From: Rubricoccus marinus
GTDB lineage: Bacteria; Bacteroidota; Rhodothermia; Rhodothermales; Rubricoccaceae
DNA: 64,000 nt
Assembly: GCF_002257665.1 (NCBI RefSeq)
Contig: NZ_MQWB01000001.1
Location: 282,021-346,020 of the forward strand
Reading direction: 5' to 3'
A program made the position numbers and the translations under genes. Shown in pieces: positions 31,450 through 64,000 of the stretch. Within the stretch, counting starts at the first letter, position 1, and every line of letters begins with the position of its first letter. The notes below the pieces were generated by a model that searched no databases, was not told the DNA's origin, and saw nothing but the letters and a program-made list of their open reading frames with translations.

Positions 31450-33270
31450 TTACCGGTGCAGGAGCGCTTTCAGTGCCGCCCCGCCAGAGGCGACGCCCGC
31501 CACCCACACCCACGCGCCGCTCGCGGCGAACGCGAGCGCGCCGAGTCCGCAGGCCGCGACGGTCCACGTGAGGCGGTCGACCGCCGCGGCCACGCGCTCG
31601 CCAGAGGCCACGACGTCGGGGGAGCGGACGGTGAGCGCGCCGGTTTCGGCGAGCGTCAGCACACGGTCGAGGCGGCTTGGAAGGCCGAGCGCCGTTTTGA
31701 CCTCGCCGACTACGCGGTCCTTGAGCGCCTGCTTGACGCCGGGCGTGGCCTCGCCCACGAGGGGCTCTACGTAGGGCCAGACAGGGTCAAACGGGTTGAG
31801 GGCCGGGTCCAGCGCGGTCCCCAGTCCGACGAGGAGGAGCGCGGTCCGCTCCAAAAGGATCCAGTCGCGCGGCACGCGGAAGGCGCTCGCGAGGTCGCGG
31901 ATGCTCACGTTCATCTCGCGCATCTGGTCGAACGCGATGCTCTGCTGCGCCATCGACTGCTCGAACGAGATGTCGCCGAGGCTGAAGTTGGCGGGGTCGA
32001 TACCCTGCATCACCTCGGCCTGGATGTTCTCGATCAGGCTCACGACCGCCCGGTTGGTCTCGCTCGCGCCAGAGGCCGTGGACACGAAGCCCATCAGGCC
32101 GAGCGCGGCGGTCACGCGCGAGGCGTCGCGGGCGAGCGTGCCGGCGATCATCTCCGCGAGCCCCTCGCGCATGGTGGGCGTGAGGCGCGCGACGGCGCCG
32201 AAATCGAGGAAGACCAGCGCGAAGCCGTCGGGCTCGGCGGGGTCGGGCCGGACGAGGAGGTTGCCGGGGTGCGGGTCGGCGTGGTAGGCGCCCTCGGCGA
32301 AGACCATGCGGCCGTAGGCGTCCAGCATGCGCGCGGCGAGGGCGGTCCGGTCGATGCCACTGGCGTCGAGCGCGGCGAGGTCGCCGGACTTGATGCCGTC
32401 CACCCACTCGGTCGTGAGCACACGTTGCGCGGACCGCTCCGCAACGACGGTCGGTACCTCGACGCCAGAGGCCTCGCGCAAGGCTGCGCCCACGGCCTCG
32501 ACGTTGATGGCCTCTTGCCGGAAGTCCAGCTCGGCGCGGATCACGGCCTCGATCTCGTCCATCTGCGCGTTGAGTCCGCGAATCCCGAACCACCGGCCGA
32601 CAACGCGCAGGATCGTGCGGATGGCCTGGAGGTCCAGCTCGGTGATCGCCTCAATGTCGGCGTGCTGCACCTTGAGCGCCACGTCGCGGCCGTCTAGCCG
32701 CGCGCGGTGGACCTGCGCGAGACTCGCGGAGGCCACAGGCTCGGGCGAGACCCAGTCGAACAGGCCCTCTGGCGGCGCGCCGAGCTCGGAGGTCACGCGC
32801 GCGCGGACGTGCGCGAAGTCGCCGGCGGGGACCTGGTCTTGCAGGCCTTCGAGCTCGTCGCGGAAGCCCTCGGGCAGGAAGTTGGTGAGCGCGCTCGCGA
32901 GCTGCCCGGCCTTGATAAACAGGCCACGCAGCCGCAGGATGGCGCGCCGCGCGCGGCGCCCGTTGCGGACATGGAGCCTCTGGCGCCGCCGCGCCGCCCA
33001 CGCGGGTCCGCGGACCTTGGCCCAGAGGTCGAACCAGAGGTAGCTCAGCGCGATGCGCGCCGCCGCGCTGTACGCCCGCCAGAGGCGGAAGCGGCGCGAG
33101 GCCGGCGCGGCGATCTCGATGCGGGGCTCGGGCGGCAGCGGCAATGGAGCCGCGGCGGTGGGCGGCGCGATCTCCGCCAGAGGCGGGACCTCCACGGTCA
33201 CGTCGGCCGCGAGGCCGTCGCCGGAGTGGACCGCGCCAGAGGCGGTCGGGGCAGGGGGCTGGGTGCGCAT
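31450..33270 (-). CDS. ABC1/UbiB/AarF-family atypical kinase
   Basis: A 606-residue ABC1-family protein. The invariant KxGQ helix (LFIKAGQLASALTNFLPEGF), the P-loop-like SASLAQVHRARL, the catalytic DPHPGNLLV and DFGAV metal motif are all present. A C-terminal pair of hydrophobic helices completes the UbiB pattern. Such proteins support quinone synthesis or lipid transport in the inner membrane. An N-terminal Pro/Ala-rich extension of about 50 residues is motif-rich. The first 20 codons lie in a 113-bp direct repeat copied again at 34413-34525. Confidence 0.88.
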   Translation of the reverse strand: MRTQPPAPTASGAVHSGDGLAADVTVEVPPLAEIAPPTAAAPLPLPPEPRIEIAAPASRRFRLWRAYSAAARIALSYLWFDLWAKVRGPAWAARRRQRLHVRNGRRARRAILRLRGLFIKAGQLASALTNFLPEGFRDELEGLQDQVPAGDFAHVRARVTSELGAPPEGLFDWVSPEPVASASLAQVHRARLDGRDVALKVQHADIEAITELDLQAIRTILRVVGRWFGIRGLNAQMDEIEAVIRAELDFRQEAINVEAVGAALREASGVEVPTVVAERSAQRVLTTEWVDGIKSGDLAALDASGIDRTALAARMLDAYGRMVFAEGAYHADPHPGNLLVRPDPAEPDGFALVFLDFGAVARLTPTMREGLAEMIAGTLARDASRVTAALGLMGFVSTASGASETNRAVVSLIENIQAEVMQGIDPANFSLGDISFEQSMAQQSIAFDQMREMNVSIRDLASAFRVPRDWILLERTALLLVGLGTALDPALNPFDPVWPYVEPLVGEATPGVKQALKDRVVGEVKTALGLPSRLDRVLTLAETGALTVRSPDVVASGERVAAAVDRLTWTVAACGLGALAFAASGAWVWVAGVASGGAALKALLHR

Positions 33271-33325
33271 CGGGGGCTCGTACGGCCCAGGCTGCGCAAG
33301 GCTTCGCGCCTCACACGATTCTCGC
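33213..33325. repeat. 113-bp direct repeat, copy 1
   Basis: Matches 34413-34525 at 112 of 113 positions (difference at 33311 T versus 34511 G), exactly 1200 bp apart. It includes the start codon, the first 20 codons and the upstream region of the UbiB-like gene. The two copies flank the sulfotransferase gene. Confidence 0.95.
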
Positions 33326-33449
33326 GCTCTCTGTCCTAGCTTGCGCTCCTAGTGTGCACGTACCGGAGGCGCTAGGTTGCGCCGCTGTGTCTGAGGCTTC
33401 TGGTGACCCTCTGCTCTGACTGGCACCCCTTCACGCATCTCATCCCGTC

Positions 33450-34346
33450 GTGCTCCAGATCGTGTACATCGCCGCCGCGCCTCGGAGCGGGACCACGTTG
33501 CTGGGCAACATCTTGGGCAGCCTGCCCAGCGTGGCTCATGTAGGCGAGTTGGACTTGGTTTGGCGAAACCCGCAGGATTACGACGAACGGCTGTGTGGGT
33601 GTGGCCACCCACTTGCGATCTGCCCGTTCTGGAACGATGCGCTTGACGTCGCGCGGTCCTTCCACTCGCAAGTGGATGTCTCAGGCCATTACAACCAGGT
33701 TTTGGCTTGGGAGCGACGCATCGCCCATGGGGCTGCACCATCGGCGCAGGAGCAGGTGTACCTGGAGTCAATCACGGAGATGTACCGCCGCGTCACGGAG
33801 GCCAGCGGCGCCCGCGTCATCGTCGACTCGTCCAAGAGGCCGCATTACGGGGCATGCCTCCGCCGCATCCCAAGCGCCGACGTCCGCGTGCTCCACCTCG
33901 TCCGCGATCCCCGCGCGTTCGTGTACTCGCGCCAGAGCCGCCTCAAGGCGGCCCGCCCCGATGGTCGGTTCGCGCTCGACATGCCCCGTGCAGCGCTCGA
34001 CCTCTACCGCTGGCGCCGCATCAACCGCGAGGCGGCGGGACTCGCGCGCAGGGGGGCATCCATGCGCGTCCAGTACGAGAGGCTGATGGCGGACCCGGAG
34101 CGCGTGCTGGGCGAGATCGCGGCGTTCTCCAACTTGGAGGTGGACGGGCTAGGCCAAGGCGGCGCCGTCGACCTCGCGACGAGCCACACGTTCAAGGGCA
34201 ACAAGAACCGGTTCCAGACCGGCGAGGTGCGCTTGGCGGAGGACCTGCGGTGGGAGCGCGAGTTAACCCCGCTCAGCGAAGGCGCCCTCCGCGTGCTCGC
34301 AGCGCCTCTTCTCGCGTGGCCTCTGGCGCTAGAGGCTGCCGGTTGA
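33450..34346 (+). CDS. Sulfotransferase family protein
   Basis: A 298-residue PAPS-dependent sulfotransferase. The 5'-phosphosulfate loop is AAAPRSGTTLLGNILGSL (residues 8-25) and the 3'-phosphate region is VRVLHLVRDPRAFVYSRQS. VDSSKRPHYGACLRRIP lies between them. The fold and length fit single-domain cytosolic enzymes that sulfate a carbohydrate or small molecule. It starts with GTG. The gene lacks the iterated motif except at its very end, has flanking direct repeats, and its cassette looks inserted beside the UbiB gene. Confidence 0.87.
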   Translation: MLQIVYIAAAPRSGTTLLGNILGSLPSVAHVGELDLVWRNPQDYDERLCGCGHPLAICPFWNDALDVARSFHSQVDVSGHYNQVLAWERRIAHGAAPSAQEQVYLESITEMYRRVTEASGARVIVDSSKRPHYGACLRRIPSADVRVLHLVRDPRAFVYSRQSRLKAARPDGRFALDMPRAALDLYRWRRINREAAGLARRGASMRVQYERLMADPERVLGEIAAFSNLEVDGLGQGGAVDLATSHTFKGNKNRFQTGEVRLAEDLRWERELTPLSEGALRVLAAPLLAWPLALEAAG

Positions 34347-34412
34347 ACCTCTGCGGGGCGAGGCTGCCCGCGCCCTATACCTCTGAGCCAATGAGCCCTC
34401 TCTCTAGACCAG

Positions 34413-34525
34413 GGCCGTCGCCGGAGTGGACCGCGCCAGAGGCGGTCGGGGCAGGGGGCTGGGTGCGCATCGGGGGCTCGTACGGCCCAGGCTGCGCAAG
34501 GCTTCGCGCCGCACACGATTCTCGC
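34413..34525. repeat. 113-bp direct repeat, copy 2
   Basis: Second copy of 33213-33325. It ends within a type B motif palindrome, so the two copies diverge at the palindrome boundary. Confidence 0.95.
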
Positions 34526-34540
34526 CAGAGGCCTCTGGCG
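34523..34540. repeat. Motif palindrome type B at the repeat boundary
   Basis: Perfect 18-base palindrome that starts 3 bp before the end of direct-repeat copy 2. Confidence 0.9.
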
Positions 34541-34664
34541 CCGTGGTGTGCTCCCGCGAGGGGGCGGACAGCTGGACCGCGCGAAACGACTGCTCGTTCT
34601 GTTTTTCAGGCTCCTGAGACGTTTAGGTTTATACACTGACGTTCCTCTCTCTCCCCGTATCTCT

Positions 34665-37364
34665 ATGCGCCACTTTGTTACGCTCCTCGTCTTGGCTCTC
34701 CTTAGCGTCTCTGGCGTAGCGCCAGAGGCCTCTGCGCAGACGCCGGGCTCATGCGCGCTGGGAACGGCGGAGGGCGAGCTCGACGTGTCCAACGTCTTCG
34801 CCCGCGTGTTCAACACCGGGAGTCTGTTCTTTGGCAACACCACGACCAACGGCGACGGCTACCTCGCGCCGCGCTTCTCCGACCACTCCCCGCTGTTCGC
34901 GGCGGGCATCTGGCTGGGCGGGTTCGCCGAGGGCGAGCTCCGCGTCGCGGGCTCGAACTACAGCAACTTCAATTTCTACCCCGGCCCGCTCAACGAGGAC
35001 GGCATGCTGCCCGACGCCGACGACTGCTCCGCCTTCGACCGCATCTACGTCGTGAGTACCGCGGACGTGGACCGCTACGAGGCCTCTGGCGAGGCGACCG
35101 CAGACCTCGCGGCGTGGCCGGTCGGGCTGGGCGCGCCCGCCGTGGACGCCATCGGCCAACCGCTGACGGCGACCTCGCGGGAGCAGGTGCTGGACCTCGG
35201 TGCGGGCGAGCGGCCGGTGATCTACGGAAGCCAGACGGCGTGGTGGGTCATGAACGACGTGGGCGCGCCGCACACCGCTCGCGAGACGCCGCCGCTCGGT
35301 GTGGAGGTGCGCGTGAGCGCGTTCGTGATCGCAGGTGACGCGGTGGCCGGGGCGCCAGAGGCCACGTTCTACCGCTACGAGATCGTCAACCGGAGCGCGA
35401 ACGAGATCACAGGCCTCCGCGCGGGCTTCTTTAGTGACCCCGACCTGGGCGCCGCGGGAGATGACTACATCGCGACCGACACGACGCGGAGCCTCGTCAT
35501 CGCCTACAACGCCAGCCCGACAGACCTGGTGTACGGCATTCCGCCCGCGCTGGGCATAGACCTGCTGAACGGCGCTGCCGCCTCCAGCTGGTTCATCGGC
35601 GGGGAAAGCACGACGACGACGGGGGACCCGATCACGGGCGAGCAGATGTACAACGTGCTCCAGGGCTTGTGGAGCGGCGGTTCACCGGTGCGCGAGTTCG
35701 GGAACGGCTACAGGCAACCCGAGACGTACCCCGTTACGCCATTCGTCCTTGCAGGAGACCCGGTAACGGGGTCCTTCTGGAGCGAGGAGAACATCGACGG
35801 CGAGGGCACGAACGGTCCCTCTGGCGACCGCCGCATGGTCATCACGGCGCCGCCCACTACGCTGGCCTCTGGCGCGAGCCGCACGGTGGACCTCGCGGTC
35901 CTCTTCGCGCAAGGGACGGACCGCTTCGATAGCGTCACCGAACTCCGCGACATCAGCGACGAGGTACAAGTGGCATACGACGACGGCTCGCTCTTCTCAC
36001 TCGGGGACGCCCTCGCTCTTTTGCCCGCCCCCACGCCTCTGGCGCCAGAGGCCGGGCAGTACGTGGGAGCTTTGGAGAGCGTCGCCTTCTCGTGGACGCC
36101 CGTTCCTGGAGCCGAAGGCTACACGCTGAGATGGGGCGACTCGCCAGAGGCCCTCACGTCGCAGTGGGTCACGACGGAGACCGAGGTCTCCGTATCCGCC
36201 CGGAGTCTGGTAGTGGGGAGCAGCCTGCGGACCTTCTACTGGCAGGTCGAGTCGGGCGCGAATGGCGCTGTTGGGGCCGCTTCCGAGGTCCAATCAGGAG
36301 AGGTGTACGTGCCCGGCGTCTTGGAGCTGGCCTCTGGCGCTCCGGCGTACGTCGAGGTCGCCAGAGGCGACGGCGGGGATCCCTGCGGCCCGGACGCGGT
36401 GAGCCCGGACGGATGTGACGAAGTGGGTGGCAACCTCGTCTGGCGCTCGCTGAACTCGACGGGGCAGTATTACCTCCACGATAACATCCACGATACGAGC
36501 CAGCGGTTTCGGTTCACGCTCGCCGCGGCGGCGCCTAACGACTTCGAGATTCGGTTTACGGCGGGCGGCGGCCTGGCGCTATCCGCCCCCGAAGATTTTT
36601 ACTCGTATAGAGGCTTGAGCAACGTGATTCGCGTGCCGTTCGAGATCTGGGACATCGGCCCGGTGGTCGCAGGCGAGGACAATGATCCCGCCGATGACGT
36701 GAGGCTGATCCCGGCGCTGAGCTCTCTCGACGTAGATGCTTCCGGTCCAGACATTGCGGGGACGTGCGCGTTCGACCCCAGCGAGATTCCTGAATCTCGC
36801 GCCCTGCTCGATGGCTACGTCGAGAGCGACGCGATCAGCGGGTACTACCCTGAGTCGAGCTACGAGGACTTCGAGGGAGACTTTCTTGCTGAGGTTGACG
36901 CGGCCCCAGGCGGGTGCCTGGAAACGGACTCACGGAGTGCTACCCTCGCTTACCTGGACCTCTCGCGCTATCCCCCTGTTGGAGGGTACACGTTCGGCTC
37001 CCTCGCGACGGCGCCCGCGCTGCCGGAGACCGGGACCACGGTCCGGTTCTACACGACCGGTGCCCCGCCGCCCGTCGCCGCCGCCCCCTTGCCAGAGGCC
37101 TCTGGCGGAATCGCGCTGGCGGTTGGCCCGAACCCCTCGCGCGGAGCCGCGACGGTGCGCGTGACGCTCGCGGCGCCAGAGGGGGTGCGCGTGCGGCTGT
37201 TGGACATGCTCGGCCGCGAGGTGGCCGTGATCGCCGACGGGCCGCAGGCCTCTGGCGAGACGGCGTTTGCGCTTCCGGGAGACCTGGCTGCGGGCGTCTA
37301 CGCCGTAGAGGCCGTGGCGGGAGGAGCCTCGCGCGTGACGCGGCTCGTGACCGTGATTCGGTAG
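34665..37364 (+). CDS. Large secreted protein with FnIII-like and T9SS sorting domains
   Basis: An 899-residue exported protein. The signal peptide MRHFVTLLVLALLSVSG is followed by APEASAQ, which is motif-encoded. A large body of unknown fold (repeat-poor; FSDHSPLFAAGIWLGG and TFYRYEIVNRSANE) precedes a fibronectin-III-like segment (about 445-540; FSWTPVPGAEGYTLRWGDSP). The end is a T9SS sorting domain (ALAVGPNPSRGAATVRVTL, VRLLDMLGREVAVIADG, LAAGVYAVEAVAGG). It is convergent with smc, 6 bp between stops. The biological role is unknown. Confidence 0.82.
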   Translation: MRHFVTLLVLALLSVSGVAPEASAQTPGSCALGTAEGELDVSNVFARVFNTGSLFFGNTTTNGDGYLAPRFSDHSPLFAAGIWLGGFAEGELRVAGSNYSNFNFYPGPLNEDGMLPDADDCSAFDRIYVVSTADVDRYEASGEATADLAAWPVGLGAPAVDAIGQPLTATSREQVLDLGAGERPVIYGSQTAWWVMNDVGAPHTARETPPLGVEVRVSAFVIAGDAVAGAPEATFYRYEIVNRSANEITGLRAGFFSDPDLGAAGDDYIATDTTRSLVIAYNASPTDLVYGIPPALGIDLLNGAAASSWFIGGESTTTTGDPITGEQMYNVLQGLWSGGSPVREFGNGYRQPETYPVTPFVLAGDPVTGSFWSEENIDGEGTNGPSGDRRMVITAPPTTLASGASRTVDLAVLFAQGTDRFDSVTELRDISDEVQVAYDDGSLFSLGDALALLPAPTPLAPEAGQYVGALESVAFSWTPVPGAEGYTLRWGDSPEALTSQWVTTETEVSVSARSLVVGSSLRTFYWQVESGANGAVGAASEVQSGEVYVPGVLELASGAPAYVEVARGDGGDPCGPDAVSPDGCDEVGGNLVWRSLNSTGQYYLHDNIHDTSQRFRFTLAAAAPNDFEIRFTAGGGLALSAPEDFYSYRGLSNVIRVPFEIWDIGPVVAGEDNDPADDVRLIPALSSLDVDASGPDIAGTCAFDPSEIPESRALLDGYVESDAISGYYPESSYEDFEGDFLAEVDAAPGGCLETDSRSATLAYLDLSRYPPVGGYTFGSLATAPALPETGTTVRFYTTGAPPPVAAAPLPEASGGIALAVGPNPSRGAATVRVTLAAPEGVRVRLLDMLGREVAVIADGPQASGETAFALPGDLAAGVYAVEAVAGGASRVTRLVTVIR

Positions 37365-37370
37365 GCGCGC

Positions 37371-40300
37371 CTACGCTGCGGCCTCTGGTGACGGCGCGAC
37401 GGCCTCCGCATCGGCGCCGTCGCCAGAGGCGTCGTCGAAGCGGACGCCGACGAGGCGGCTGACGCCGGGCGTGGGCATCGTCACGCCGTACATCCGGTCG
37501 GCGGCCTCCATTGTGAGCTTGTTGTGGGTCACGAGGATGAACTGCGTGCGGTCCGCGAAGCGGCGGATGAGGTGCATAAAGCGGCCCACGTTGGCGTCGT
37601 CCAGGGGCGCGTCCACCTCGTCGAGGATGCAGAACGGGCTTGGCTTGACGAGGTAGATCGCGAAGAGGAGCGCGATGGCCGTCAGCGTTTTCTCGCCGCC
37701 CGAGAGCTGGCCCAGCGAGACGGGCCGCTTGCCGCTCGGCCGCGCGCGGATCTCGACGGGCGCTTCGAGCGGGTCGTCGCCGTCGAGGATGAGGTCGGCG
37801 GCGGCGTCCGACCCGAAGAGGTCGGTGAACAGCTCGGAGAAGGCGCCGCGGACGGCCTCGAAGGTCTCGCCGAAGCGCTCGGCCGCGGTCGTGTTGATCT
37901 CGTCGATCGTGGTGAGCAGCGTGTTCTCGGCGTGGGCGAGGTCGGCGCGTTGCTCTTGGAGAAAGCTCAGGCGCTCCTTTTCCTCGTCGTACTGCTCCAG
38001 CGCGAGCTCGTTGACGGCACCCAGCCCGCGAATCTTGTCGCGCAGGCGCGGGATTTCGAGCCGCGCCGTGGCGGGCTGAAACATCTCCTCCGCCTCCAGC
38101 TTGTCGAGGTGCTCCGCCGCCTCGTCCAGGCCGACGCCGTGCTCCTCGGTGAGCCGCTCGTCCAGGCCGTCCAGTCGCGTGGCGGCCTCGGCCTGCTTGA
38201 TCTCGGCACCGGAGGCCGTCTCGGCGGCGGCTTCTCGCCTCTGGCGCAGACCGCGAAGCGCGGCCTCGGCATCGGAGATGTGGGCGCGGGCCTGGAGAAC
38301 GGCGGTCTCCGCGTCCTCGGCGGCGGTTTGCAGCCCGTCGGTCAGCGCGCGGGCTTCGTCGAGCTGCTGGCGCAGACCTTCTCCGGCGCCAGAGGCTTCG
38401 GCGAGCGCGGCGTCGAGCCTCTGGCGCTCGGTCTGCCGCGTGGCCTGGCGCTGCGCGATGTCGTGGCGCGTGCCTTCGGCGCGCTCGCGGGCGGCTCGGG
38501 CGCCAGAGGCCTCGCTCTCGGCGCGGGCGTAGGCGAGGCGCGCGTCGGCCCAGGCCTCGTCGGCCTGGCGGAGCGTTTCGGCGGCTTCGCGCGCGGCGGC
38601 CTCGGCGGTTTCGAGGACGCCTCGGGCGTCGGCCTCTTGCGCCGTAGCGGCGTCGAGGGCGGTCTGGAGGTCGGCTTCGTCGGGCTCGCCAGAGGCCTCG
38701 GCGTCCAGGGCCTCGAGCCTCGCGGCGAGGCGTGTGGCCTGGGCCTCTCGCGCCTCGCGTTGGGCGGCATGGCGGTCGGCGTCGCGCTGTGCTCCCGCCA
38801 GCCTCTGGCGCGCGGCGTCGCGCTCGGACTCGGCGGCGCGGAGCGCCTGGCGCGCTTCGTCGCGGGCGTCGCGGGCGCTCCCCGCGGCCGTCTGGGCGCT
38901 CGCGAGAGCGGCCTCGGCAGCGTCCAGGGCCTCTTGCGCCGTCGCGAGCCGCTCGCGGGTGCCGAGGCGCGAGGTCTGGGCCGTGGCGCTGCCGCCGCGG
39001 ACGGCGCCGGTGCCGTCGGTCCACGCGCCGCCGGGCGTGACGAAGCGGGCGACGGGGTAGGCTTCGCGCTGCTCGCGGGCGTCTCCCAGCGACGGGACGA
39101 GAAACGTGTTGGCAAAAAGGGCGCCGGTGAGCGCGCCGTAGGCGCCGTCCACGCGGACGCGGTCCGCCAGAGGCACGGCGCCAGGGGGCGTGGGGGAGCG
39201 TTCCTGCGGAGCGCGGCCGAGGCGGCTGAGGACGAGGAACGTCGCGCGGCCCCGCTCCGACGCGCGCAAGCGGCCGATGGCGGCGTCGGCCTCGTCCTCG
39301 GTCTGAACGACGAGCGCGCCCGCCCACGGGCCGAGCGCGGCCTCGACGGCGAGCTGGTCCTCGTCCGAGCAACCGACCACGTCGGCGACGGTCGGCGCGT
39401 CCCAGTCGGGGTGCTCGCGGAGAAACGAGACGGCGTCGTCGCCGCTGCCTTCCTCCACCAGCGCGCTCAGGAGCGCGGCCTCGGCGCGGGCGCCTTCGCG
39501 CGCGGCGCGCGACGTTTGCAGCGCGGCTTCCGCTCCGTCCAGCGCCTCTTGCGCCATGTCGCGGGCCTCTCGCGCCTCGCCCATCGCCATCTCGGCGGCA
39601 GAGGCCGCCTGCTCGAACGCGGAGAGGTCCGCCTTGGGTGCCTTGTCCTCAGCGCCCGCTTCGAGCGTGGCCTGCTCGGCGGCGAGCCGCTGGCGCTCGG
39701 CCTCGCGCATCGTGCGGCGGTCGGCGAGGCGGTCCAGGGCGCGGCGGGCGCTTTGCGCCTCGCCAGAGGCTCGGCCGAGGTCCCCTCGCGCGGCATCGCG
39801 CGTGCTCCGGGCCCGCTGCGCGGCGGTGTCGGCGTCGGCGCGCGCGGTGAGCGCAGCGTCGCGGACGCCAGAGGCCTGCTCCAGCGCGGCGGCGGTCTCA
39901 CCGATGCGGGCGTCTAAGTCCTCGGTCTGCGCGTCGAGCGCCTCCAGCCTCTGGCGGTCGGCGTCGTCCTCGGCGTCCAGCCGCGCGAGGGCGCGGGCGT
40001 TCGCTTCGCGTCGCTCCGTCCCGACCCTCAGCTCGGAATCGAGCGCGCGGACGGTTTCGATGTGGGCGTCCAGCGCGCGGCGGGCGTCGCCCAGCGACTG
40101 CTCCTTGGCCACGAGGCCCGTCCGCTCCTCTTCGAGCGCGGCCTCGCCCTTGGCGATCTGCGCGTTGAGCGCGCCGACCCCTTCGCGGGCCTCTTGCGCG
40201 GCGCGGGCCGCTTCGGCGCGCTCGGCGCCCAGGCGGGCGTAGTCGTGCGCGATCATCGCCAGCTCCAGGGCGCGGAGGCGCTCGGCAAAGCGGCGGTGGC

Positions 40301-40940
40301 GCGAGGCTTTTTGCGCCTGGCGCGAGAGGCTGCGGACCTGCTTTTCGACCTCCTCGATGATGTCGTCCAGGCGCGTGAGGTCGGCCTGGGTCGCGTCCAG
40401 CTTTTTGAGCGCCTGCCCGCGGCGCACCTTGTACTTGGTGACGCCAGCGGCCTCCTCGAACAGCCGCCGCCGGTCGGCCGCGTTCTCGCTCAGGATGTCC
40501 TCGATCATCTTGAGCTCGATGACGGAGTAGGCGCCGGCGCCCATGCCGGTGTCCATGAACAGGTCCAGCACGTCCTTGAGCCGACACGTTACGCCGTTCA
40601 AGAGGTACTCGGAGTCCCCGGAGCGGTAGAGCCGCCGCGCGACCGTCACCTCGCCGTACTCGGTCGGCAGCACGCCGCGCGTGTTCTCGATCGTCAGCTC
40701 CACCTCGGCCATGCCGAGCGCCTTTTTGCCGGCGGCGCCGTTGAAGATCACGCCGGCCATGCTCTCGCTGCGCAAGAGGCGCGCGCGCTGCTCGCCGAGC
40801 ACCCACCGGATGCTGTCCACGACGTTGCTCTTGCCGCACCCGTTGGGCCCCACGATAGCCGTCACGCCCGGCGAGAAGTCGACGGCGGTTTTCTGGGCGA
40901 AGCTTTTGAACCCGTGGATCGAGAGGTTCTTGAGGTACAT
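37371..40940 (-). CDS. smc: Chromosome segregation protein SMC
   Basis: A 1189-residue condensin ATPase. Walker [10 protein letters not shown] is at 31-39 and the N-terminal [15 protein letters not shown] is canonical. Long coiled coils flank a hinge (about 510-660, around [22 protein letters not shown] and [19 protein letters not shown]). The ABC signature [18 protein letters not shown] and Walker [14 protein letters not shown] close the C-terminal head. The coiled coils carry unusually many motif-encoded triplets (RQR, ASG, PEA). The C-terminal tail is also motif-encoded. The reading frame upstream of the ATG has no SMC similarity. Confidence 0.96.
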
Positions 40941-41025
40941 CGGCTGCGGGGGCGCCCGCGAGGTGGGAGCCGGCGAAGATACCGGGCCTCTGGCGGGGGC
41001 GCGGGGCGCGCGAGGTGGTGCGCTC

Positions 41026-41043
41026 CGCCAGAGGCCTCTGGCG
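41026..41043. repeat. Motif palindrome type B in a divergent promoter region
   Basis: Perfect 18-base palindrome between the divergent smc and monooxygenase genes. Confidence 0.9.
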
Positions 41044-41117
41044 GCGTGAAGACCTCGTCCGGCCGGAATCGGGCGCCAGAGGCGCGGCGTTCGGCGGGGA
41101 AACGACTCCGCACACCG

Positions 41118-42119
41118 ATGACGCTTTCCATCCTCGACCTCGTCCCCATCACCTCTGGCGGGACCGCCGCCGAGGCCATCCGCCGGACCGTGGACCTCGC
41201 GCAGCTCGCCGACCGACTGGGCTACGAGCGGCTCTGGTACGCCGAGCACCACGGGATGCCCAGCATCGCGAGCTCGGCGCCCGAGATCATTATCGGGCAG
41301 GTGGCCTCCGCGACCGAGCGCATCCGCGTCGGCTCCGGGGGCGTGATGCTGCCCAACCACGCGCCACTGCTCGTGGCCGAGCGGTTCCACACATTGGAAA
41401 CGCTGTTCCCCGGCCGCATCGACCTCGGCCTCGGGCGCGCGCCCGGCACCAACCCGGCGCACGTCCGCGCGCTCCGCTCGTTCGACGCCGAGCAGTTCCC
41501 GCACCAGCTCGCCGAGCTCGTCACGCTCTCGCGCGGCGGCTTCCCCGACGACCACCCGTTCGCGCAGGTGCGCGTCACGCCAACGGGCGTAGACCTCCCG
41601 CCGATCTGGCTTCTCGGCTCCAGCGGCGCGAGCGCGCAGTTCGCCGGCGCCAACGGGCTGGGCTACGCCTTTGCGAGCCACTTCTCGCCCACGCCAGCGG
41701 CCCCCGCGTTGCTCGCCTACCGCGACGCGTTCCAGCCCTCCGAGGCGTTTCCCGAGCCGCACGCCATTCTCGCCGCGACCGTCGTTTGCGCCGAGACCGA
41801 CGCCGAGGCCCGCCGCCTCGCGACCACGATGGAACTCGCCTGGGCGGGCATCCGCACGGGGCGCTTCGAGCCGCTGCCGTCGCCAGAGACCGCCATCGCG
41901 CACGACTACTCTCCTGCCGAGCAGCAGGCCGTCGACCTCTACCGCCAGATTGCGATCGTGGGCACGCCAGAGGCCGTCCGCGACGAGATCACGCGCCGCG
42001 CCGAGGAAGCGGGCGCCGACGAGGTGATGGTCACGACGAACATCTACGACCCCGAGGCGCGGTTGCGCTCGTTCTCGCTTCTGGCCGAGGCCTTCGAGAT
42101 GGCGCCTCTGGCGGCCTGA
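41118..42119 (+). CDS. LLM-class flavin-dependent oxidoreductase (luciferase-like)
   Basis: A 333-residue TIM-barrel flavoprotein that uses FMNH2 or F420H2. Family blocks are present from [19 protein letters not shown] to [52 protein letters not shown], and [17 protein letters not shown]. This is the group typified by YhbW/alkanal monooxygenase-like proteins. The substrate is unknown. The C-terminus (MAPLAA) and stop region are motif-encoded. It is divergent from smc. Confidence 0.9.
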
Positions 42120-57897: not shown

Positions 57898-59391
57898 CTA
57901 CCGCGCGACGGTGAACCGCGCTCTCAGCACCTCGCCGCCGACCTCGGCGCGCACGGTGTAGACGCCCGCCGCCCACGCCCGCGTGTCGACCTCCCACGCG
58001 TGATCGCCTCGCGCGCCAGAGGCTTCGCGGTGGACCTCGCGGCCTCTGGCGTCGTAGACCGTGACCGTTGCCGCCTCTGGGGTGCTCACCTCCAGCGCGA
58101 TCCGCACCGCGCCCGAGGCGGGGTTCGGGCTCACGCGCAACCGCGCGCCAGAGGCCTCTCGCGGCGGGGGCTCCCCCGCCACCGCCACGACCGGCACCGA
58201 CGTCCGCTTGTCCCACACCGGCCCTCGGGACGACACGCCCACATACAGCCGCCCGTCCGGGCCCGCCTGCGCCCATTGCGCGCGCGGGTTGCCTACCTCA
58301 GGGCCGTGCTCCTCTGGCGGGAACAGCTCCTCCCACTCCGCCCACAGCGACCACGTCTCCCCCGCGTCGCCCGTCCACCACACCGGCCCCCGCATCATCA
58401 CCGCCGCCGCCTGCCCGCCCCCGAGGTCCACGAGGTCCACGCACGTCCCGAACGCCCCGTACGGCCAGAGCTCCGCCGTCTGCCGCCACGTGTCGCCCCC
58501 GTCGTCGGAGACGCGGGCGTACACGCTGTCGGTGGGGACGCGGATGTCGTTGACGACCGTGACCACGCGGTCGCCCCCGCCGGGGGCCCGCCCGCGGAGC
58601 GTGGCGATGCAGCCCGTGGCCTGCTGGGCGTAGGCGTATTCCGGCGTGGGGTGCCAGGTGTCGCCCCCGTCGTCGGAGCGGGTGACGCCGGAGAGCCCGG
58701 CGCCGAGGAGCCGCCCGGCGTGGGGCCCCGTGGTGACGACGGCGACGCGCTCGGCGTGGGCGTCGTTGCCGTAGGCGTCGTAGAGCCAGCCGGTGGCCTC
58801 CCTCCACGACGCGCCGCGGTCGTCGGAGAGGTGCGCCATCCCGCTCCCCTGCATGGCGACGAGGCGGCCGGCGTAGGGCAGCCCCGCGGGGATCTCCACG
58901 ATCCGCAGCGTCCTACCAATGCTCTCGTGCCGGGTCCAGGACTGCCCCGCATCGACGGAGCGGTAGGCGCCCCCGAGCTCGTCGATGATGAGGGTGTCCC
59001 GCCCCAGGGCGTGGATGGCGCCCACGGCGCCCCGGGGTTGGTCCGACACCTTTACCCAGACCGCGCTGGAGTCGTAGGGCGGGGGGAGCCTGTAGATGCC
59101 GTCGTACACGACCTCCTCGCCGTCGAGGCTGTTCCGGTCCGCGAACACGCCCCAGAGCGCGCCGTCGGGGCCGAACGAGGGGGGATAGGGCGTGTTGTGG
59201 GGGTGGTTGCCCACGCGCTCCCACGTCACCTCCGGCTGCGCCGCCGCGCCAGAGGCCAGGACCATCGCGAGGAGCGCTCGCGCCACGAGCGTCCTCGCGG
59301 CGAGGCCCACGCAGGGCCGCGCACGCGAGCCGCGCTCGGGCGTCTCACGCCTTTCGCGTCTGGGCGGGGTTCCACGTCTGGGCGTCGTCAT
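57898..59391 (-). CDS. Secreted exo-alpha-sialidase-like/BNR-repeat protein with T9SS sorting domain (paralogue A)
   Basis: A 497-residue exported protein. A basic n-region precedes the hydrophobic segment LLAMVLASGAAAQ. Asp-box (BNR) repeats follow, such as SDDRGASWREA, SDDGGDTWHPT, SDDGGDTWRQTAEL and TGDAGETWSLWAEW, as in sialidases and photosynthesis-stability-like beta propellers. The end is a T9SS sorting domain (LRVSPNPASGAVRIALEVS, VTVYDARGREVHREASG, DTRAWAAGVYTVRAEVGG). It is a clear paralogue of the gene at 62990. The frame opens into a neighbouring sorting-domain fragment upstream, so I use MTTPRRGTPP. Its stop abuts a motif copy. Confidence 0.82.
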   Translation of the reverse strand: MTTPRRGTPPRRERRETPERGSRARPCVGLAARTLVARALLAMVLASGAAAQPEVTWERVGNHPHNTPYPPSFGPDGALWGVFADRNSLDGEEVVYDGIYRLPPPYDSSAVWVKVSDQPRGAVGAIHALGRDTLIIDELGGAYRSVDAGQSWTRHESIGRTLRIVEIPAGLPYAGRLVAMQGSGMAHLSDDRGASWREATGWLYDAYGNDAHAERVAVVTTGPHAGRLLGAGLSGVTRSDDGGDTWHPTPEYAYAQQATGCIATLRGRAPGGGDRVVTVVNDIRVPTDSVYARVSDDGGDTWRQTAELWPYGAFGTCVDLVDLGGGQAAAVMMRGPVWWTGDAGETWSLWAEWEELFPPEEHGPEVGNPRAQWAQAGPDGRLYVGVSSRGPVWDKRTSVPVVAVAGEPPPREASGARLRVSPNPASGAVRIALEVSTPEAATVTVYDARGREVHREASGARGDHAWEVDTRAWAAGVYTVRAEVGGEVLRARFTVAR

Positions 59392-62989: not shown

Positions 62990-64000
62990 CTACCGCGCGA
63001 CGGCCAGCCGTGCGCTCACCACCTCGCCGCCGACCTCGGCGCGCACGGCGTAGACGCCCGCGGCCCACGCCCGCGTGTCGACCTCCCACGCGTGATCGCC
63101 TCGCGCGCCAGAGGCTTCGCGGTAGACCTCGCGGCCTCTGGCGTCGTAGACCGTGACCGCTACCGCCTCTGGCGTGCCCAGCTCCAGCGCGATCCGCACG
63201 GCGCCCGAGGCGGGGTTCGGGCTCACGCGCAAACGCGCGCCAGAGGCCTCCCGCGGAGCCGGCTCCCCCGCCACCGGCCACGCCGTCACGGGCTCCGATG
63301 TCCTCTTGTCGTAGACGTACTTGTCCCCGCCGGGAGTGGAGAGCCCGATGTACAGCCGCCCGTCCGGGCCCGCGAGCGCCCAGAACGCACGGGGGTCGCC
63401 CCCAACCACCTCCCTGGGCGCCACCAACTCCTCCCACTCCGCCCACCGTGCCCAGGTCTCACCGGCATCCTCGGTCCACCACACCGGCCCTCTCATCATC
63501 ACGGCTGCTGCCCGGCCGCCTCCGAGATCCACCACCTCCATGCACGTGCGGAAATCCCCGGGGAACAGGCCCGCCCCCCGCTGCCACGTCTCCCCGCCGT
63601 CGTCCGACACGCTCACGCGGACGGAGTCGTCCGGGATGCGGATGTCGTTCACGACCGTCAAAACCCGGTCGCCGCCGCTCGGTGACTGACCACGGAGCGT
63701 CGCGATGCAGTTGGTGGACTGCTGGCGGAAGGCCCACTCGGACGTGGTGTGCCACGTGTAGCCGCCGTCGTCGGAGGCGATGATGCCGGAGAGCCCCCCG
63801 GCCACGAGGCGCCCGGCGTGGGCCCCCGTCGTGACGACCGCGATGCGCTCGGCGTACCCGTTGGTAAGCCCGCTCAGGTCTGCCGGGGTCCAGGTGGCGC
63901 CTCGGTCGTCCGAGAAGGAGGCCACTTGGCCTCCACGAGCGGCGATCAAGCGCCCAGCGTGCGGCAAACCCGCGGGCATCTCGATGATCCGCGTGACACC
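62990..64000 (-). CDS. Secreted BNR-repeat protein with T9SS sorting domain (paralogue B), 5' end outside
   Basis: The C-terminal 336 residues of a protein paralogous to the gene at 57898. Asp-box repeats are visible (SDDRGATWTPADLSG, SDDGGYTWHTTSEW, SDDGGETWQRGAGL, TEDAGETWARWAEW), then a sorting domain almost identical to paralogue A (LRVSPNPASGAVRIALELG, YDARGREVYREASG, DTRAWAAGVYAVRAEVGG). The frame continues without interruption to position 64000, so the start is outside. Identity to A is highest at the C-terminus. Confidence 0.8.
   Translation of the reverse strand, partial: GVTRIIEMPAGLPHAGRLIAARGGQVASFSDDRGATWTPADLSGLTNGYAERIAVVTTGAHAGRLVAGGLSGIIASDDGGYTWHTTSEWAFRQQSTNCIATLRGQSPSGGDRVLTVVNDIRIPDDSVRVSVSDDGGETWQRGAGLFPGDFRTCMEVVDLGGGRAAAVMMRGPVWWTEDAGETWARWAEWEELVAPREVVGGDPRAFWALAGPDGRLYIGLSTPGGDKYVYDKRTSEPVTAWPVAGEPAPREASGARLRVSPNPASGAVRIALELGTPEAVAVTVYDARGREVYREASGARGDHAWEVDTRAWAAGVYAVRAEVGGEVVSARLAVAR

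Follow-up and report, generated by a model that had tools for sequence, protein, structure and literature searches.

The genome of the marine bacterium Rubricoccus marinus contains a single gene for a predicted sulfotransferase that is framed by two nearly identical duplicates of the beginning of UbiB. Most probably, ordinary recombination inserted this gene once and left the arrangement as a scar; a novel type of mobile element is the less likely reading. One event that both added the segment and duplicated its target is the shortest account of the locus. The full reading, namely that a foreign one-gene segment of 1087 bp was added beside the UbiB start in one event, with 113 bp of the target duplicated, by a single crossover of the Campbell type, is regarded here as an evenly balanced proposition. 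The locus is situated in the window, i.e., the whole 64-kb stretch of DNA that was analysed, which spans C1:282021–346020, and coordinates given without a contig label refer to this window.

The copies of the 113-nt direct repeat occupy positions 33213–33325 and 34413–34525. They are 1200 bp apart and identical at 112 of 113 nucleotides, a match that cannot be due to chance. The only mismatch is at offset 99 (T at 33311, G at 34511). The spacing and the identity had been reported in the preliminary description and were confirmed; in addition, the repeat edges are sharp, with the adjacent bases differing on both sides. Only these two full copies are present in the genome (4,430,441 bases, 15 contigs), and the third match is just 31 bp long, with 87% identity. 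Repeat pairs were surveyed in the 64-kb window and in twenty 20-kb stretches, which amounts to 464 kb, or about one-tenth of the genome. No second near-identical pair flanking a unique segment was found in the 464 kb surveyed; the other pairs were either paralogue-like, with 88–94% identity, or runs of N. The repeat-flanked unit is a one-off within these 464 kb, rather than one of a family of elements. A structured repeat was ruled out, since the sequence folds no better than its shuffled versions, and the RNA and tRNA search found no RNA family or tRNA target. The window also contains a 300-bp direct repeat (57898–58197 and 62990–63289, 91% identity, 5092 bp apart), probably representing paralogous genes.

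The UbiB/ABC1 atypical kinase gene is located on the minus strand at 31450–33270 and encodes a protein of 606 aa (Pfam ABC1, E = 1.3e-65; the match to TIGR01982 is below the equivalog cut-off). Its ATG at 33270 lies inside copy 1, so the earlier claim that the repeat holds the start of a UbiB-like gene was correct. According to the repeat comparison, copy 1 comprises, on the minus strand, the first 19 UbiB codons and 55 bp upstream of them. The UbiB frame runs on through the left edge of this copy, and the SGDGLA motif straddling that edge is kept in the UbiB of congener G001, which is 75% identical to the R. marinus protein. The UbiB-start fragment in copy 2, also on the minus strand, departs from UbiB after SGDG, and its frame reaches a stop after 31 codons. 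Judged by the reading frames, copy 1 is the original, true 5′ end of UbiB and copy 2 a putatively dead, truncated fragment, because the UbiB frame and SGDGLA are continuous through copy 1 only.

The unique insert between the copies (33326–34412, plus strand) is 1087 bp long, and its sole gene-like frame is that of the sulfotransferase (33450–34346, plus strand), an intact frame of 298 aa with a GTG start. The product matches Pfam Sulfotransfer_3 with an E-value of 2.3e-16 and 61.2 bits, passing the curated cut-off of 27 bits. The stretches PRSGTTLL and RDPRA resemble the PAPS-binding loops of the family. The protein is probably active, moving sulfate from PAPS onto an acceptor. The sole match among solved structures was 4gox, a chain named polyketide synthase (E = 5.1e-06). 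The GC-content of the insert is 66.9%, and 5.7% of same-size windows are equally low or lower.

No DNA relatives of the locus were detected in eight other genomes of the family, where only short fragments of at most 80 bp matched. Matches to the sulfotransferase at E ≤ 0.001 occur in 13 of the 60 genomes searched, with the R. marinus genome included, and the best relatives among the 60 share 29–31% identity. At E ≤ 1e-25, only two genomes match out of 296 from the phylum, one of them again that of R. marinus. The latter genome contains five Sulfotransfer_3 matches in all and no second copy of the sulfotransferase of this locus. Neither a pattern scan of genome_contigs nor a search in phages gave a match to the sulfotransferase. 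Plasmid matches comprised 81 records, all with less than 60% identity (31–36% among the matches listed).

To the right of copy 2 in R. marinus are the gene for a large protein of 899 aa with a T9SS type A sorting domain (34665–37364, plus strand; TIGR04183, 25 bits at a cut-off of 23) and the SMC gene (37371–41903, minus strand), a frame of 1510 codons in which residues 323–1488 make up the SMC part (TIGR02168, 956 bits at a cut-off of 567). In G001, the only congener compared, the UbiB start and the end of the SMC gene (TIGR02168, 973 bits at the same cut-off) are 135 bp apart, and neither a sulfotransferase nor a T9SS gene is present in the gap. Insertion with target duplication is supported by the course of UbiB through copy 1, by the truncation of copy 2 and by the lack of the segment in the congener. 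Since G001 is without the T9SS gene too, more than one event separates the two loci. No SMC gene was seen in the 18-kb stretches around UbiB of three further genomes (G004, G006 and G007), and the UbiB–SMC order is therefore known only within the genus. A scan of genome_contigs with the UbiB alignment found 57 loci, including a G001-like contig, with no closer relative among them.

The T9SS gene has two tandem paralogues at C1:3801695–3807147. The DNA similarity to them is 89%, starting at 34734, and suggests gene conversion or a recent copy. As a source of the repeat, these paralogues were rejected; they do not explain it because their similarity begins at 34734, away from the repeat edge.

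The order of events may also have been the reverse, with the sulfotransferase gene present first and 113 bp of the UbiB start copied 1.2 kb away later, by repair or template switching. Such a local copy would need neither a circle nor outside homology, and it agrees with the sharp edges and with the truncated copy. The comparison of the region upstream of UbiB in G001 with the right flanks favours neither copy (scores of 57.5 for copy 1 and 54.0 for copy 2), G001 being too divergent. However, two independent events are needed here where one suffices, and we consider a later copy possible, yet doubtful. If it were true, the repeat would be uninformative as to how the sulfotransferase gene arrived.

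Insertion by a single crossover would begin with the entry into the cell of donor DNA bearing the sulfotransferase gene together with some 113 bp from the 5′ part of UbiB. Such a donor could be, e.g., a fragment from a strain already carrying the gene at the UbiB site, circularised after uptake. A single RecA crossover inside the common 113 bp would then yield the order UbiB–113–insert–113–rest. The repeat is present as two copies around the insert; the congener G001 is too divergent to serve as the single-copy ancestor that a Campbell-type integrant calls for. A circle must already carry host-like UbiB sequence, and the first arrival of the gene is therefore pushed back to the donor; this need points to a donor strain in which the gene occupied the corresponding position. 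Homologues of ComEC and DprA were found in the R. marinus genome; they do not show competence, because they also occur in 10 of 14 and 11 of 14 control genomes, respectively.

The preliminary description had offered two routes to this footprint. Of the Campbell-type reading, the insertion with a 113-bp duplication is supported; the mechanism, which would be a single crossover, fits the anatomy and has an experimental precedent in E. coli. The other route, a tandem duplication followed by replacement, was abandoned; the insert is unrelated to the 1087 bp past copy 2 (alignment score of 25 with a shuffled mean of 24.4), although a complete replacement would be traceless.

A duplication could also arise without homology if a break with nicks spaced some 113 nt from each other had taken up foreign DNA and both ends had been filled in. 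Reasoning from the anatomy, such a capture would leave the footprint in one step and without a homologous donor. However, a Ku gene was not found in the genome, so that end joining of the classical kind would not be expected, although other forms may occur; capture at a break is considered unlikely.

An artefact of assembly is most improbable. The genome of strain SG-29T is a single short-read draft (15 scaffolds, 4,430,441 bp), and runs of N are present elsewhere in the assembly. However, the 300-base reads and the 800-bp library used for this draft span a 113-bp repeat (PMC5609423), the window is without any N, and the one mismatch between the copies speaks against an unmerged contig overlap.

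If the unit were a mobile element or an integrated cassette, the repeats would represent att sites or a long target-site duplication, and the enzyme would act from elsewhere. The genome does contain two matches to IntI above the NCBIfam cut-off, i.e., integron integrases at C10:18458–19426 and C1:1899705–1900640, together with other tyrosine recombinase-like matches, and two integron genes are mentioned in the genome paper (PMC5609423). However, the insert holds no recombinase gene, and the unstructured repeat and the lack of a second unit in 464 kb also count against an element, which we regard as highly unlikely. Target duplications made by transposons are generally shorter than 113 bp. The core consensus of attC sites is RYYYAAC/GTTRRRY; no such pair occurs in 33151–34620, and no attC-like match was obtained in the window by a simple and possibly insensitive scan. 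An integron cassette was rejected for want of this R″/R′ core pair, an exclusion that is not strong, as the same scan, of unproven sensitivity, was also blank in four stretches that contain the integrases or lie close to them. An insertion sequence or transposon was rejected as well, there being no transposase frame and no inverted-repeat pair of at least 25 nt bracketing the insert.

The genome is rich in a 10-base word, CGCCAGAGGC, which occurs 1660 times in the 464 kb on both strands (3.6 per kb). This is 134 times the second-order Markov expectation, and the commonest one-base neighbour occurs 167 times. In four relatives, of which stretches of 6.7 to 18 kb were examined, GCCAGAGG has a density of 0 to 0.11 per kb. 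Facing pairs of the abundant word are frequent, with 66 and 129 occurrences of two palindrome forms in the 464 kb. The word looks like a candidate uptake signal or HIP-like motif at unusual density. No literature on CGCCAGAGGC was found; to judge from their titles, the papers with such letters among the matches listed deal with other subjects.

One copy of the word is present within each 113-bp repeat, and an 18-bp palindrome made of two facing copies (34523–34540) overlaps copy 2 on the right, where that copy ends three bases inside the palindrome. The earlier remark that the copies diverge at a palindrome is true at copy 2 and amounts to a mild coincidence, with four edges viewed post hoc; the share of positions with this palindrome no more than 2 bp away is 0.3%, rising to 0.9% when both palindrome forms are counted. 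The scarcity of the word in the insert had been noted as well. A single copy does occur there, near the end, with a mean of 4.3 per 1087-bp window, but the shortage is not significant, since one copy or none is found in 9.3% of windows of this length within the 464 kb. For the same reason, word depletion was rejected as proof of a foreign insert. Given the repeats and the word, one may imagine an integrase-free, facultative 1200-bp cassette that would exit and re-enter at the UbiB start via the 113-bp repeats and would spread between conspecific cells by word-guided transformation, a scheme that we find hardly probable.

Comparable structures are described in the publications cited here. Among 60 Lac− recombinants of E. 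coli, 56 yielded the duplication product; in the 14 that were sequenced, 109–950 bp were duplicated, which the authors explained by a circle that had integrated through one crossover in shortened homology (PMC3240628). As in those Campbell-type integrants, presumably foreign DNA in R. marinus is placed between direct repeats of host sequence, 113 bp long here and 109–950 bp there; unlike that selected plasmid experiment, the present event is natural, with no plasmid genes (PMC3240628). Homology-facilitated illegitimate recombination similarly brings in roughly 1 kb of foreign DNA by means of one-sided homology, but usually replaces host DNA, with a deletion of similar size, whereas host DNA is duplicated in R. 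marinus (PMC3240628, PMC2884548). Transposed genes of Arabidopsis are likewise single genes between direct repeats of a genic target, for which insertion of a circle was proposed; the movement there is within the genome of a eukaryote, while the R. marinus genome contains no second copy of the gene (PMC2869330).

The locus represents a clean footprint of the gain of a single gene in a little-studied group, and the traces of additive integration are readable from one genome. As such, the sulfotransferase locus is ordinary biology and leaves general ideas unchanged. Of wider reach is its possible tie to the extremely dense 10-base word, which merits more attention.
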